NCBI RefSeq assembly: GCF_017565425.1
Contig: NZ_JAGEMK010000001.1
Span: 496,001 to 560,000 of the forward strand
Source: Actinotalea soli
GTDB taxonomy: Bacteria; Actinomycetota; Actinomycetes; Actinomycetales; Cellulomonadaceae
DNA: 64,000 nucleotides
Direction of reading: 5' to 3'
In this document: piece after piece, positions 58,726 through 64,000 of the stretch
How the letters are laid out: each line of letters starts with the position of its first letter
How positions within the stretch are numbered: the first letter of the stretch is position 1
Position numbers and translations under genes: made by a program
Notes under the pieces: generated by a model
The model's input: only the letters and a program-made list of their open reading frames with translations
Told to the model about the DNA's origin: nothing
Database searches by the model: none

Positions 58726-59889
58726 TCAGCCCCCCGAGACGCTCAGCTCGGCCTCACGGAGCTTGCGCTCGAAGGCCTCGCTCAGCTCGCGGGAGTCGAG
58801 CCAGCCCTCGGGCAGGGACGGCCGCTTGGGCGACCCCGCCCGCCCGCGCTGCCCCTCGGCGCCAGCCCCGGGGTAGGGCTGGTCGAGGTCGAGCTCGGCG
58901 AGCAGGTCGTCGAGGTGGCCGAGGCTCTCCACGAGGCCGAACCGGGCCCGGAGCTCCCCCCCGACCACGTAGCCCTTGAAGTACCAGGCCATGTGCTTGC
59001 GCAGCTCACGCAGGGCCTTGGACTCGTCGTCGAACTCCTCGACCATGAGCTCGGCGTGCCGACGCACCGCCGAGGCGACCTCGCGCATCCCGGGGCGCAC
59101 CCGGACGTCCGAACCGTGGAAGGCCGCGGCCAGGTCGGCGAAGAGCCACGGCCGCCCCTGGCAGCCACGCCCGACGACGACGCCGTCGCACCCCGTCTGC
59201 TCGACCATCGCGAGGGCGTCCTCGGCGGACCAGATGTCGCCGTTGCCGAGCACGGGGATGTCGGTGACGGTCTCCTTGAGACGTGCGATGGCCTCCCAGT
59301 CGGCGGTGCCCGAGTAGTAGTCGGCGGCCGTCCGGGCGTGCAGGGCCACGGCGGCGACCCCTGCGTCCTGGGCCCTGAGCCCCGCCTCGAGGTACGTCAG
59401 GTGGTCCTCGTCGATCCCCTTGCGCATCTTGACGGTGACCGGCACCCCGTGGGGCGCGGCCGCGTCCACAGCCGCTCCGACGATCGCGGCGAAGAGGTCC
59501 CGCTTCCAGGGCAGCACGGCGCCACCGCCCTTGCGGGTCACCTTGGGGACCGGGCACCCGAAGTTGAGGTCGACGTGGTCGGCGCGGTCTTCCTCGGCCA
59601 GCACCCGCACCGCGGCACCCACGGTGGCGGGGTCCACGCCGTAGACCTGGACCGACCGCGGCCGCTCGTCCTCGTCGTGGCGGATGATGCGCATCGACTC
59701 GGGCGTCCGCTCGACCAGGGCCCGGGAGGTGACCATCTCGGCGACGTAGAGGCCCGCTCCGTGCTCGCGGCACAGCCGGCGGAAGGCCCGGTTGGTCACC
59801 CCGGCCATGGGCGCGAGGACCACGGGGGTCTGGACGGTCAACGGCCCGATGCGCAGCGCAGGCAGCACGGAGGAGGTCGTCGGTGTCAT
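58726..59889 (-). CDS. dusB: tRNA-dihydrouridine synthase B
   Basis: This 387-residue FMN enzyme reduces a uridine in tRNA to dihydrouridine. Visible are APMAGVTNRAFRRLCREHGA, the active-site Cys in VDLNFGCPVPKVTRKGGG, VKMRKGID, DYYSGTADWEAIARLK and PVLGNGDIWSAEDAL. A C-terminal helical tRNA-binding region follows. The ATG at 59889 fits the family start. It is divergent from the first YibE/F gene across 46 bases, so the two promoters overlap. Confidence 0.94.
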   Translation of the reverse strand: MTPTTSSVLPALRIGPLTVQTPVVLAPMAGVTNRAFRRLCREHGAGLYVAEMVTSRALVERTPESMRIIRHDEDERPRSVQVYGVDPATVGAAVRVLAEEDRADHVDLNFGCPVPKVTRKGGGAVLPWKRDLFAAIVGAAVDAAAPHGVPVTVKMRKGIDEDHLTYLEAGLRAQDAGVAAVALHARTAADYYSGTADWEAIARLKETVTDIPVLGNGDIWSAEDALAMVEQTGCDGVVVGRGCQGRPWLFADLAAAFHGSDVRVRPGMREVASAVRRHAELMVEEFDDESKALRELRKHMAWYFKGYVVGGELRARFGLVESLGHLDDLLAELDLDQPYPGAGAEGQRGRAGSPKRPSLPEGWLDSRELSEAFERKLREAELSVSGG

Positions 59890-59935
59890 CCGAGGATCAT
59901 CCCACCCTCGCTGGACCCGCACGGTCGCGGCGGGG

Positions 59936-61186
59936 ATGATCCTCGACGTGCACCTGCCCCCCGCCGACCGCTCCCGCCGCACGTCCGTCGTCCTCGCCGC
60001 GATCCTGGTGCCGCTCGCCGTCGCGACCGTGGTCGGCCTCGGGCTGCTGTGGCCCTCAGGGTCCGCGCCGCAGACCGGCGTCGTCGCCGTCGACACCGAG
60101 TACCCGACCGCTCGCGTCCAGCAGGCCGAGGACACCGCCTGCGCGGGTGAGAACGAGGACCGCCTGCCCGACGGCTCGATCCCGCGCGAGGTGACCTGCA
60201 CGCTCGTCACGGCGGTGGTCACCTCCTCCGAGGCCGAGGGGGAGGTCGTCGAGGTGTGGTCCCCGGCGACCGTGCGCGCCGACGAGGTCCCGGCAGGGAC
60301 GACGGTCGTCCTGGCCCGGTACCTCGAGACCGCGACCGAGCCCGAGGTCTGGGCCTGGCACGACTACGCGCGCACCCTGCCCCTGACGACCCTGGCCGGG
60401 GCCTTCGCGATCGTCGTGGTCCTCGTCGCCGGGATGCGCGGGTTCCGCGCCCTGGTCGGCCTGGCGATCGCCTTCGGCCTCATCGCGACCTTCATGCTCC
60501 CCGCGCTGCTCGAGGGCGGTGACCCGCTCGTCGTCGGCCTGGTGGGCTCCTCAGCCATCATGTTCGTCGTGCTCTACCTCGCGCACGGCTTCTCCCGCAG
60601 GACGACGACGGCGCTGCTCGGCACCATGGCGGGGCTCGCGGTGACCGCGCTGCTCGGCGCGGTCGCAGCGCGGGCCGCACACCTCACCGGCATCTCGACC
60701 GAGGAGAGCTACCGGCTCGCGATGCTGACCGGGCAGCTCGACGGGACCGCCCTGCGCGGCCTCTTCCTGTGCGGCGTCGTGCTCGCGGGGCTCGGGGTGC
60801 TCAACGACGTGACGATCACCCAGGCCTCGGCCGTGTGGGAGCTGCGAGCGGCAGACCCGACGTCCTCCCGGCGCGAGCTCTTCGCCGGCGGCATGCGGAT
60901 CGGTCGGGACCACATCGCCTCGACCGTCTACACCATCGCCTTCGCCTACGCGGGGGCCGCCCTGCCGATCCTTCTGCTGCTGCAGGTGTACCAGATGCCC
61001 CTGGCGCAGACCCTCGGCAGCGGAGAGTTCGCCGAGGAGATCGCCCGCACCCTCGTCGGGTCGATCGGCCTGGTCCTGGCGATCCCGCTGACGACGGCCA
61101 TCGCGGCCCTCGTCGTCACGACCCAGGCAGCGCTGGCTCCTGGCGAGCAGGGTGGTCATCGGCACGTGGCGCCGGCCCCGCAGTGA
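59936..61186 (+). CDS. YibE/F-like multi-pass membrane protein (copy 1)
   Basis: This protein has 416 residues. An N-terminal helix (VVLAAILVPLAVATVVGLGL) and an extracytoplasmic region of about 100 residues with two Cys precede six or so membrane helices. The signature LGVLNDVTITQASAVWELR and GGMRIGRDHIASTVYTIAFA identifies the YibE/F family. These proteins are thought to act as transporters but have no assigned substrate. The last 71 bases overlap the end of the opposing paralog. Its C-terminus is short and hydrophilic (GGHRHVAPAPQ). Confidence 0.85.
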   Translation: MILDVHLPPADRSRRTSVVLAAILVPLAVATVVGLGLLWPSGSAPQTGVVAVDTEYPTARVQQAEDTACAGENEDRLPDGSIPREVTCTLVTAVVTSSEAEGEVVEVWSPATVRADEVPAGTTVVLARYLETATEPEVWAWHDYARTLPLTTLAGAFAIVVVLVAGMRGFRALVGLAIAFGLIATFMLPALLEGGDPLVVGLVGSSAIMFVVLYLAHGFSRRTTTALLGTMAGLAVTALLGAVAARAAHLTGISTEESYRLAMLTGQLDGTALRGLFLCGVVLAGLGVLNDVTITQASAVWELRAADPTSSRRELFAGGMRIGRDHIASTVYTIAFAYAGAALPILLLLQVYQMPLAQTLGSGEFAEEIARTLVGSIGLVLAIPLTTAIAALVVTTQAALAPGEQGGHRHVAPAPQ

Positions 61187-62288
61187 CCACCACCGCGGCG
61201 ATGGCCGTGGTGAGCGGGATCGCGGCCACCAGCCCGATCGACCCGACCAGGGTCCGTACCACCTCCTCGGCGATCTCCCCTGCGGTCAGGGTGGACGCGA
61301 GGGACTGGTCGTACAGGCTGACGAGGAGCATCACGGGAAGGGCAGCACCGACGTAGGCGAAGGCGATCGTGTAGACGGTCGAGGCGATGTGGTCCCGGCC
61401 GATGCGCATGCCGCGGCGGAACAGGTCGACCCGGCTCAGGTCCGGCGCCAGGGTGCGCAGCTCCCACACGGCCGAGGCCTGGGTGATGGTCACGTCGTTC
61501 AGGACGCCCAGCCCCGCGAGGATGATCCCGCAGAGGACCACGCCGCGCAGGTCCATGTCGGGGGCGTAGGAGGGCAGCACGAGGGAGTCCTCCCCCGTCA
61601 TGCCCGTGAGGTGGGCGGCCCCCGTGGCCCACCCGGCCAGCACCGCGGTGAGGGCGAGGCCGAGCAGGGTGCCCAGGAGGGCCGTCGTGGTCCGGGCGCT
61701 CAGCCCGTGGGCCAGGTAGAGAGTGACGAACAGGGCAGCCGAGGCCGTGACCAGCCCCACCGGCAGAGCGGGGTAGCCGGCCAGGAGCGCCGGCAGGGTG
61801 AAGCCCGCGATCAGGGCCAGGGACAGGCCCAGGCCCACGAGGGCCGCCAGGCCCCGCCACCGTGCGACGAGGACCACCATCCCGGCGTAGACCACGGCCA
61901 GGAGGCCCAGGGGCAGGTCCCGCACGTGGTCGACGTACACGTAGGGCACCCCGTCGCCCTGGGTGGCCTCGAGGGCCAGCAGCCGGACCTCGTCCCCGGC
62001 CGCGATCCCCCCGGCGATCGCCTCGGGCGGGACGTAGGCGAGCTCGAGGCCGTCGACCTCGACCTCGAGCAGCCCGGCCTCCGGCAGCACCCGCAGCACC
62101 TCGGTCTGCAGGTACGAGCCCTCCTCGTCGACCGTGGGCACCTTGTCGACTCGGTCCTGGGCACCGGGCCAGAGGAGGACCAGGCCCAGGACTGTGACGA
62201 GCAGGGCAGGGACCACCGCGAGGGTGAGCACGAGCCGCACCCGAGGGGTCGCCCGGGGAGCGGGTCCGTGCGTGTGGCCGTGGCTCAT
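61116..62288 (-). CDS. YibE/F-like multi-pass membrane protein (copy 2, His-rich N-terminus)
   Basis: This 390-residue paralog of the gene converging on it shares LGVLNDVTITQASAVWELR and RIGRDHIASTVYTIAFAY with it. It starts MSHGHTHGPAPRATP, which could bind metal, after a GAGGGGAC ribosome site. A signal-anchor helix (LTLAVVPALLVTVLGLVLLW), a beta-rich outside segment (residues about 45-130) and membrane helices follow. It lies 35 bases after glyS on the same strand, so it may be co-transcribed with glyS. Confidence 0.85.
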   Translation of the reverse strand: MSHGHTHGPAPRATPRVRLVLTLAVVPALLVTVLGLVLLWPGAQDRVDKVPTVDEEGSYLQTEVLRVLPEAGLLEVEVDGLELAYVPPEAIAGGIAAGDEVRLLALEATQGDGVPYVYVDHVRDLPLGLLAVVYAGMVVLVARWRGLAALVGLGLSLALIAGFTLPALLAGYPALPVGLVTASAALFVTLYLAHGLSARTTTALLGTLLGLALTAVLAGWATGAAHLTGMTGEDSLVLPSYAPDMDLRGVVLCGIILAGLGVLNDVTITQASAVWELRTLAPDLSRVDLFRRGMRIGRDHIASTVYTIAFAYVGAALPVMLLVSLYDQSLASTLTAGEIAEEVVRTLVGSIGLVAAIPLTTAIAAVVVTAGPAPRADDHPARQEPALPGS

Positions 62289-62323
62289 CGGCGTCCCCTC
62301 ACCCGGACCGGAACGTGCGGGGG

Positions 62324-63712
62324 TCAGGCGCCCAGCAGCCGAGCACCCAGGTAGGCCGCGACCTGGTCGAGGGCGACCCGCTCCTGGGACATGGTGTCCC
62401 GCGAACGGATCGTGACGGCCTGGTCCTCGAGGCTGACGAAGTCGACCGTCACGCAGAACGGCGTGCCGATCTCGTCCTGGCGCCGGTAGCGACGCCCGAT
62501 GGCTCCCGCGTCGTCGAAGTCGACGTTCCAGGCCTTGCGCAGCTCGGCCGCGAGGTTGCGGGCCACGGGCGACAGGTCCTCGTGGCGCGAGAGGGGCAGC
62601 ACCGCTGCCTTGACCGGCGCCAGGCGGGGGTCCAGCCGCAGCACGGTGCGCTTGTCCACCCCGCCCTTGGCGTTGGGCGCCTCGTCCTCGGCGTAGGCCT
62701 CGCACAGGAAGGCCATCAGCGAACGGGTCAGGCCGGCTGCCGGCTCGATGACGTAGGGGACCCAGCGCTCGTTCTTGGCCTGGTCGAAGTAGGACAGGTC
62801 CTGGCCAGAGTGCTCGCTGTGCGTCTTGAGGTCGAAGTCGGTGCGGTTCGCGATGCCCTCGAGCTCGCCCCACTCGCTGCCGGTGAAGCCGAAGCGGTAC
62901 TCGATGTCGACCGTGCGGGTCGAGTAGTGCGAGAGCTTCTCGGCCGGGTGCTCGTAGAGCCGCAGGTTGTCGCGGGACAGGCCGAGGTCGACGTACCAGT
63001 CCGTCCGCGCGTCGATCCAGTACTGGTGCCACTCCGCGTCGGTCCCGGGCTCGACGAAGAACTCCATCTCCATCTGCTCGAACTCGCGCGTGCGGAAGAT
63101 GAAGTTGCCCGGGGTGATCTCGTTCCGGAAGGACTTGCCGATCTGCCCGATGCCGAAGGGTGGCTTGCGGCGCGCGGTGGTCATCACGTTGGCGAAGTTC
63201 ACGAAGATGCCCTGGGCCGTCTCGGGGCGCAGGTAGTGCAGGCCCGACTCGTCCTCGACGGGTCCGAGGTGCGTCTTGAGCATCATGTTGAAGTCCCGGG
63301 GCTCGGTCCACTGCCCGCGGGTGCCGCAGTTGGGGCACGCGATGTCCCCCAGGCCGTTTTCAGGGGCGCGCCCCTTCTTCTCCTCGAACTCCTCGAGCAT
63401 CTGGTCCTCGCGGAACCGCTTGTGGCAGCTGAGGCACTCGGTGAGCGGGTCGGTGAACACGCCGACGTGGCCCGAGGCGACCCAGACCTGGCGCGGCAGG
63501 ATCACCGAGGAGTCCAGACCGACGATGTCATCACGGCTGGTCACCATCGAGCGCCACCACTGCCGCTTGATGTTCTCCTTGAGCTCGACGCCCAGGGGGC
63601 CGTAGTCCCATGCCGAGCGGGTTCCGCCGTAGATCTCCCCCGACGGGAACACGAACCCCCGGCGCTTGGCGAGGTTGGTCACGGCGTCGAGGCGGGACGA
63701 GCTGGCGGCCAC
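62324..63712 (-). CDS. glyS: Glycyl-tRNA synthetase (alpha2 type)
   Basis: This 462-residue class II synthetase charges tRNA-Gly. Class II motifs are visible ([46 protein letters not shown]). A zinc-binding insert carries CLSCHKRF and CPNCGTRG. An AGGAG precedes the GTG at 63712, giving [20 protein letters not shown], and the length fits. The same frame is open further upstream, but that part is not family-like. It is followed by the second YibE/F gene. Confidence 0.95.
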
Positions 63713-63825
63713 GGGATCACTCCTGGTGTCGGCGGGTCCGCACGTGGCTCGTGCGGACGGGACTCCTGGCGCGCCGGGGCGCGCAGGCATCAGGTCAGGC
63801 TACCTGCGTCCGGGCTACCAGCGTT

Positions 63826-63862
63826 TGACAACGGTTATCACGACTCCTGAGAATGATCCTCA
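63826..63862 (+). promoter_or_regulatory. Tandem Zur-like palindromes before the terminal lipoprotein gene
   Basis: TGACAACGGTTATCA (63826-63840) and TGAGAATGATCCTCA (63848-63862) are both 15-base sequences with TGA and TCA ends and imperfect dyad symmetry, like the Fur/Zur boxes of actinobacteria. The second overlaps the candidate starts at 63853 and 63862, so a bound repressor would block transcription or translation. Zinc (Zur) control of a zinc-uptake lipoprotein is the best reading; iron control is an alternative. Confidence 0.6.
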
Positions 63863-64000
63863 TGCCCCCCCAGCGTCGCTCCTCCCTGCCCCGATCCGTC
63901 CACGGCCGCCGCGCCGCCGTCGTCGGGGCCGCCGTGGCCGGGGCCCTCGCCCTCACCGCGTGCGGGGGCAGCACCGAGGCCCCCGCCGCGCAGGAGGAGA
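63862..64000 (+). CDS. Lipoprotein, probable metal-uptake substrate-binding protein (5' part)
   Basis: The gene runs off the window, and only about 46 residues are visible. A basic start (PPQRRSSLPRSVHGRRA), a hydrophobic core VVGAAVAGALALTACGGST with lipobox LTAC, and an Ala/Glu/Pro-rich linker give a lipoprotein. The tandem Zur-like boxes over its start and the neighbouring glyS (beside zur in mycobacteria) suggest a zinc-binding ZnuA-type protein, but the domain itself is not in view. ATG 63853 is an alternative start. Confidence 0.5.
   Translation, partial: MPPQRRSSLPRSVHGRRAAVVGAAVAGALALTACGGSTEAPAAQEE

Follow-up and report, generated by a model that had tools for sequence, protein, structure and literature searches.

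Two old paralogs that share long stretches of nearly identical DNA raise the question of whether sequence has been copied from one gene to the other or whether both genes have been held alike by selection. The question arises for a pair of YibE/F genes in a stretch of 64,000 nucleotides from the high-GC genome of Actinotalea soli (Cellulomonadaceae; contig NZ_JAGEMK010000001.1, positions 496,001 to 560,000), referred to here as the window. A sequence-only reading had described the two genes, A and B, as convergent paralogs that overlap tail to tail and share two nearly identical blocks in inverted orientation, and it had offered gene conversion or strong constraint as the cause. Our analysis favors constraint: the conserved core of the protein together with the codon bias of the genome probably accounts for the blocks, and copying between the genes is unnecessary.

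Table 1. Coordinates of the YibE/F gene pair, the shared blocks, and neighboring features in the window
Feature	Positions	Strand	Description
dus (tRNA dihydrouridine synthase)	58726..59889	-	PF01207, 299.3 bits; divergent from A
YibE/F gene A	59936..61186	+	416 aa; PF07907, 260.4 bits, domain positions 2-240 of 241
Block 1 in A (ITQASAVWELR)	60815..60846	+	32-nt exact inverse copy
Block 2 in A (GMRIGRDHIASTVYTIAFAY)	60890..60949	+	57 of 60 nt equal to the B copy
A/B tail-to-tail overlap	61116..61186	.	71 nt; codes for C-terminal tails past the YibE_F domain
YibE/F gene B	61116..62288	-	390 aa; PF07907, 249.8 bits, domain positions 3-240 of 241
Block 2 in B	61353..61412	-	3 mismatches against 60890-60949
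Block 1 in B	61456..61487	-	Exact inverse of 60815-60846
glyS (glycyl-tRNA synthetase)	62324..63790	-	PF03129 and PF00587; immediately upstream of B, same strand
Zur-like palindrome TGAGAATGATCCTCA	63848..63862	.	Between glyS and znuA; sole such site in the window

The basic description of the locus proved accurate. Both proteins score far above the curated cut-off of 27.2 bits for PF07907 (YibE_F) and cover this 241-position domain nearly from end to end, which identifies them as YibE/F paralogs, and they are the only two YibE_F matches in the genome. Their convergent orientation, the extent of their overlap, the exact 32-base inverted copy, and the 60-base copy with three mismatches were all recovered at the positions given in Table 1. 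Over the full alignment, the two proteins are identical at 200 of 388 aligned residues. On the other side of the pair, dus and A diverge from a 46-nt region containing a 20-nt inverted repeat (85%; 59891-59945) that reaches into the start of A and is a possible operator.

Both blocks are embedded in longer and weaker inverted homology (252 nt at 75% and 96 nt at 86%), and the two arms of the 252-nt homology lie 63 nt apart. Likeness of this degree would not be expected between two unrelated sequences; our null model was therefore that of two homologous proteins written in the genome's own codons, with codon usage taken from 16,000 codons of automatically chosen open reading frames of the window. 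In 5000 simulations with both proteins held fixed, an exact run of at least 32 nt arose with P = 0.048, and some 60-nt stretch with at most three mismatches with P = 0.028. Restricting the test to the two blocks, which had been picked post hoc from this very pair, gave P = 0.0014. By the homologous-protein null, the likeness of the blocks, which were chosen by eye, is thus mildly unusual.

Two properties of the genes bear directly on this result. The share of G or C at third codon positions (GC3) is 95% in A and 94% in B, and in the codon table of the window's open reading frames, a single codon serves isoleucine, tyrosine, and phenylalanine 99% of the time and glutamine, glutamate, aspartate, and histidine 93-97% of the time. 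In addition, an alignment of 46 A and B proteins contains 58 invariant columns, 20 of which fall within the 31 residues of the blocks, making the blocks the most conserved segment of YibE_F. Strong constraint on the shared segments, as the earlier reading had allowed, is therefore supported. The blocks, which cover the last part of one predicted helix and the beginning of the following one, appear to represent the conserved core of the membrane domain. In both copies, this core would be preserved by purifying selection at the protein level. As the conserved peptide contains many I, Q, E, D, H, Y, and F residues, a GC3 of about 95% would leave it scarcely any alternative DNA, with mostly two choices at the remaining codons. 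Because a conserved peptide meets strong codon bias here, long shared runs can be explained without copying. A special synonymous constraint on the blocks was also considered and rejected, since codon uniformity was 0.715 in the blocks and nearly as high in amino-acid-matched columns of the same genes (0.699 ± 0.011; P = 0.085).

For a comparison across the family, we assembled 61 loci, consisting of the window and 60 fetched regions. The first 20 of these regions were selected for a convergent pair, and the other 40 came from genomes with at least one YibE_F match among the matches listed, so that counts of gene arrangements describe selected loci and are not prevalences. Exactly one A and one B were present in the fetched locus of 38 genomes, which form the comparison set. 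Nearest-neighbor and excess tests used 37 of these 38 pairs, the pair of the sister genome G005 (locus L114) being left out.

Had conversion been at work across the family, paralogs should cluster by genome in the blocks and by copy elsewhere, and this pattern was not found. Among 74 block sequences, the nearest neighbor in block DNA was the same copy alone in 56 cases, the other copy of another genome in 6, a tie in 11, and the genome's own paralog alone in 1. With the sister locus L114 included, the same copy alone was nearest for 58 of 76 sequences and another genome's other copy for 8, and there were 10 ties, 2 of them between the own paralog and the same copy. Clustering by copy in all genomes, which the earlier reading had named as the mark of plain selection, thus describes most of the sequences (56/74) but not the cross-copy cases, the ties, or the one own-paralog case. 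The peptides show the same separation in part, as the last residues of block 2 read TIAFAY in 37 of 38 A proteins, whereas 27 of 38 B proteins have TVAFAY or TIVFAY there (manual count).

Codon identities told a similar story. At agreeing residues of the blocks, codon identity between genomes was 0.729 for A-A, 0.717 for B-B, and 0.716 for A-B comparisons, and it rose to 0.761 for A and B of the same genome; outside the blocks, A-B codon identity was likewise higher within genomes (60.2%) than between them (57.2%; 38 genomes throughout). In 37 genomes, each A was compared with its own B and with the other B copies of its clade; the excess of codons shared with its own B came to 0.024 in the blocks and 0.026 outside (permutation P = 0.49 for the difference). 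This equality points to a codon preference shared across the genome rather than to conversion confined to the blocks. Of the two causes originally proposed, constraint therefore stands, while conversion is neither needed nor demonstrated.

The one sequence of the 74 whose nearest block neighbor was its own paralog alone is A of the window, at a distance of 4 nt from its B. Recent conversion between the inverted copies, occurring after the split from the sister genome G005, would account for this observation, and the inverted homology close by (arms of 252 nt spaced 63 nt apart) and the small P value of the post hoc block test would both fit such an event. The sister genome argues otherwise. 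Its two copies are more alike in the blocks than those of the window (3 versus 4 nt, with a longest run of 45 versus 32 nt), which indicates that the window pair has been diverging. Since the split, A of the window has changed at 4 of its 31 block codons and B at 1. Two of the four changes in A, to CGA and CGG, are new as judged by the codons of relatives and lead away from B; the other two differences could have arisen in either direction. B of the window, in turn, lies 1 nt of 93 from B of Actinotalea ferrariae and 4 nt from its own A, and because it is equally near (4 nt) to A of G003, G013, and G012, its resemblance to A extends beyond its own genome.

Statistical tests on the pair gave a graded picture. 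Block matches amounted to 25 of 29 in the window pair, whereas other genomes would predict 20.6-21.3 (P = 0.03-0.05, post hoc), and to 26 of 29 in the sister pair (P = 0.008-0.015), for blocks that had been chosen for the likeness of the window pair. The contrast between blocks and the remaining sequence was reached by 2.0% (window) and 1.3% (sister) of between-genome pairs. A likelihood scan for runs of excess identity in the window pair placed the best run outside the blocks (P = 0.265). Taken for the window lineage alone, the test of clustering by genome is close to undecided. We reject recent conversion in the window genome, which we consider very improbable given the run scan, the evidence from the sister genome, and the comparison across the family.

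A different form of the idea is that rare, short, and older conversion tracts, for example in the common ancestor of the window and sister genomes or in Cellulomonas bogoriensis, have accumulated around the blocks in the Actinotalea-like clade on top of the constraint on the protein. We judge this unlikely for the clade, although a small and old conversion in the window lineage is possible and is the main rival to constraint. Both A of the window and A of its sister are nearest to a B in the blocks, the sister's A lying 2 nt from B of the window; if the sister is counted, A of the window is equally near to the sister's A and to its own B. The longest exact A/B run reaches 49 nt in G003. In C. 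bogoriensis (L115 / L034), an exact run of 60 nt surrounds block 1, and both copies contain the rare codon TCA; with a run scan value of P = 0.042, uncorrected for the 38 genomes scanned, this match may be a genuine short conversion tract. Longest exact runs were also longer within than between genomes, averaging 29.9 versus 24.6 nt over the 38 genomes and 37.9 versus 29.4 nt over eight Actinotalea-like genomes (permutation P = 0.0026). In a set of nine Actinotalea-like genomes, the within-genome excess was 0.070 in the blocks (P = 0.0025) and 0.040 outside (P = 0.0115), and the best sliding windows overlapped the blocks in part, where z reached 3.49 and the 95% limit was 3.34.

Against older tracts, the run scan reached P ≤ 0.05 in only 4 of the 38 genomes, and Fisher's combination of the values gave P = 0.079 for rows that are not independent. 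The difference in excess between the blocks and the outside gave P = 0.12 in the nine Actinotalea-like genomes and P = 0.49 over the whole sample. The distances being compared are moreover just 2 to 5 nt, and B of the window is as near to A of three other genomes as to its own. Shared codon bias explains part of the likeness within genomes, perhaps not all of it. A general caution follows for genomes with a GC3 of about 95%, in which conserved cores give long identical DNA between old paralogs and so mimic conversion.

We also considered whether the inverted blocks act as RNA or DNA, for instance through pairing of the two mRNAs, which had been raised as a possibility, or as a regulatory hairpin. 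A read-through transcript would carry self-complementary arms, and the 71-nt overlap gives the two mRNAs complementary 3' ends. The blocks themselves are in sense orientation in both mRNAs, and the longest complementary stretch between the A and B mRNAs outside the overlap is 11 nt, against a mean of 11.2 nt in shuffled sequences, which rules out pairing of the mRNAs through the blocks and leaves it conceivable only through the overlap or by read-through. A simple scan of positions 59700-63990 found no terminator between A and B, and its single site overall lay inside glyS. The overlap varies in length and 14 of 38 loci lack it, the peptides of the blocks are nearly unchanged in tandem and divergent pairs, and no clear extra synonymous constraint was detected in the blocks (P = 0.085). 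We therefore regard a role of the blocks as RNA or DNA as extremely unlikely, and the 71-nt overlap appears to have no regulatory role.

The arrangement of the genes is consistent with a long separate history of A and B. A first tree, built from 139 proteins, placed 53 A sequences in one fully supported group. A second tree of 85 proteins set A apart from B and joined it to 15 copies found in other families of the order (support 99/98). On this placement, we reject an origin of A by inverted duplication of B within the genus. Judging by these trees, whose root is not settled, either the A and B lineages predate the family or A arrived from outside. In Demequina, Georgenia, and many Arthrobacter-like loci, glyS, B, and dus lie in this order on one strand, in some cases with other genes intervening, and loci without A have dus downstream of B. 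In Actinotalea-like and several Cellulomonas loci, A is inserted in inverted orientation between B and dus. From this distribution, glyS-B-dus looks like the older gene order.

Among the 38 loci with both genes, 24 have a convergent overlapping pair (overlap of 13 to 134 nt), 7 a convergent pair whose members are 13 to 1719 nt apart, 6 a tandem pair, and 1 a divergent pair. The convergent overlap is thus a genuine arrangement common to the clade, with a drifting length. A and B would accordingly represent old separate lineages that were set convergently in one clade, where their C-terminal tails may have run into each other, allowing the length of the overlap to drift. In several loci, glyS or dus was not found within the fetched stretch and A and B were still adjacent, a hint that the two genes travel together. 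Neither gene is needed in every genome, because only A or only B was present at 23 of 61 loci and, among the matches listed, none belonged to 60 of the family's 221 genomes. The two proteins may perform related membrane-transport work. Three further genomes of the same order (G266, G307, and G372, family f15) contain three or four YibE/F copies, two of them in tandem on one contig. Two database entries were out of place: L083 (WNZI01000039.1), titled Vibrio cholerae strain 35D, has a glyS-YibE/F-dus locus of the Arthrobacter type and is most likely a contamination or a mislabeled assembly, and the YibE/F protein of L056 (QAPD01000111.1), titled Sphaerisporangium cinnabarinum, falls inside Cellulosimicrobium in the tree, through mislabeling of the strain, contamination, or transfer.

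Several features connect B with metals. B begins with the His-rich sequence MSHGHTHG and A has no such start, in keeping with the earlier remark that one copy carries a His-rich stretch. This is a trait of the B lineage, as an H.H motif was present in the leader of 76 of 85 B sequences and in 0 of 58 A sequences (a few genomes being represented twice). B was correctly described as the neighbor of glyS (Table 1). It had also been placed next to a Zur-type site; the palindrome is present, but it lies beyond glyS, about 1.5 kb from B. It was found by scanning the plus strand of the window with up to 3 mismatches to a consensus sequence, and it is oriented toward znuA and glyS. The palindrome overlaps the region of the znuA start codon (63853 or 63862), in a short divergent region with glyS, and a -35-like TTGACA is located beside it at 63825. 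Past glyS lie znuA, an ABC ATPase gene, an ABC-3 permease gene, and a FUR-family gene.

Upstream of glyS, 19 of 34 loci had a Zur-like site with up to 4 mismatches, compared with 0.3% in shuffled sequences (two genomes enter the count twice), and the 15 loci without one included the Arthrobacter-type loci tested. Any control of B by a putative Zur protein would be indirect, through a transcript covering glyS and B. For Mycobacterium smegmatis, a published table of Zur and SmtB motifs contains a predicted site upstream of glyS (PMC7174638).

AlphaFold2 models of B (mean pLDDT 89.5; m9db46d7bf987) and A (82.8; m1e166b1ce075) both show an N-terminal helix, a beta domain, and then a helical membrane domain with long helices, and A and B are accordingly predicted to be multi-helix membrane proteins. 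In structural alignments, the models matched RND proteins over approximately 160-200 residues, mostly TM2-TM6 of one half. Z scores were 9.0-11.6 overall, with 9.3-10.7 over the best 50 listed rows for A and up to 11.6 for B, and rmsd values were mostly 3.3-5.7; the tool asks for about 13 for helical bundles, and below about Z 13 such bundles may share their arrangement only. We take all 50 rows listed for A, and the leading 31 for B, to be RND proteins (AcrB-type pumps, MmpL, SecDF, and Dispatched), a few titles naming no protein, and many later rows for B are OB-fold ribosomal proteins that match the outer domain. At E ≤ 0.001, Foldseek used by itself matched nothing in the PDB, with OB-fold proteins aligned to the outer domain in many of its best rows, and a sequence profile search of the PDB returned one hit (E = 0.66). 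Comparison of YibE/F with SecF, SecD, and MMPL by hhalign, with ABC-3 as a control, gave probabilities of at most 2.8%, in a test that had no power, as SecF, SecD, and MMPL also missed one another. The models suggest that the YibE/F membrane domain resembles one half of an RND/SecDF membrane domain.

Just ahead of block 1, the predicted helix contains an invariant N-D pair (N290-D291 in A, N264-D265 in B). This helix would correspond to TM4 of RND proteins, which holds the aspartates of the proton relay. Judging by the aligned ranges and residue numbers, the N-D pair may be the equivalent of AcrB D407/D408; the most conserved YibE/F residues would then sit where RND proteins couple protons. 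Extended to the whole locus, this likeness would make YibE/F proteins RND/SecDF-like half-transporters, with A and B cooperating in the manner of SecD and SecF in Cellulomonadaceae, one of them linked to zinc through its His-rich start and the Zur-like operator between glyS and znuA, and with the N-D pair and the blocks forming an ion-coupling core. We hold this full proposal to be speculative and rather improbable. If true, an ion-coupling role of the N-D pair and the blocks would explain why these segments have been frozen in both copies. The RND-like model provides a testable first hypothesis for YibE/F, a membrane family without known function, and is the part of this analysis worth following.

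Like members of the RND superfamily (AcrB, MmpL3, SecDF, and Dispatched), the models of A and B align to a transmembrane half (Z 9.0-11.6); they differ in having one half per chain and a small OB-like outer domain, and the likeness lacks sequence support. The YibE/F family has been assigned the number TC 9.B.141, in a paper that mentions both YibE and RND (PMC3924187), and in the literature that we consulted, which was not a full search, we saw no link drawn between the two. In a study of Staphylococcus aureus, the YibE/F members SAUSA300_0442 and 0443, which have neighboring locus numbers, appear among the genes with decreased fitness in blood (PMC13227979). With the YibE/F family, A and B share the 241-position PF07907 domain over nearly its whole length and the predicted succession of N-terminal helix, beta domain, and helical membrane domain, while the window stands apart through its two convergent, overlapping lineages and the His-rich start of B. 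The gene order glyS / znuACB / FUR-family gene is common in actinobacteria. The window agrees with it in that glyS, znuA, the ABC ATPase gene, the ABC-3 permease gene, and the FUR-family gene adjoin B, and it differs in that its clade has A in inverted orientation between B and dus.
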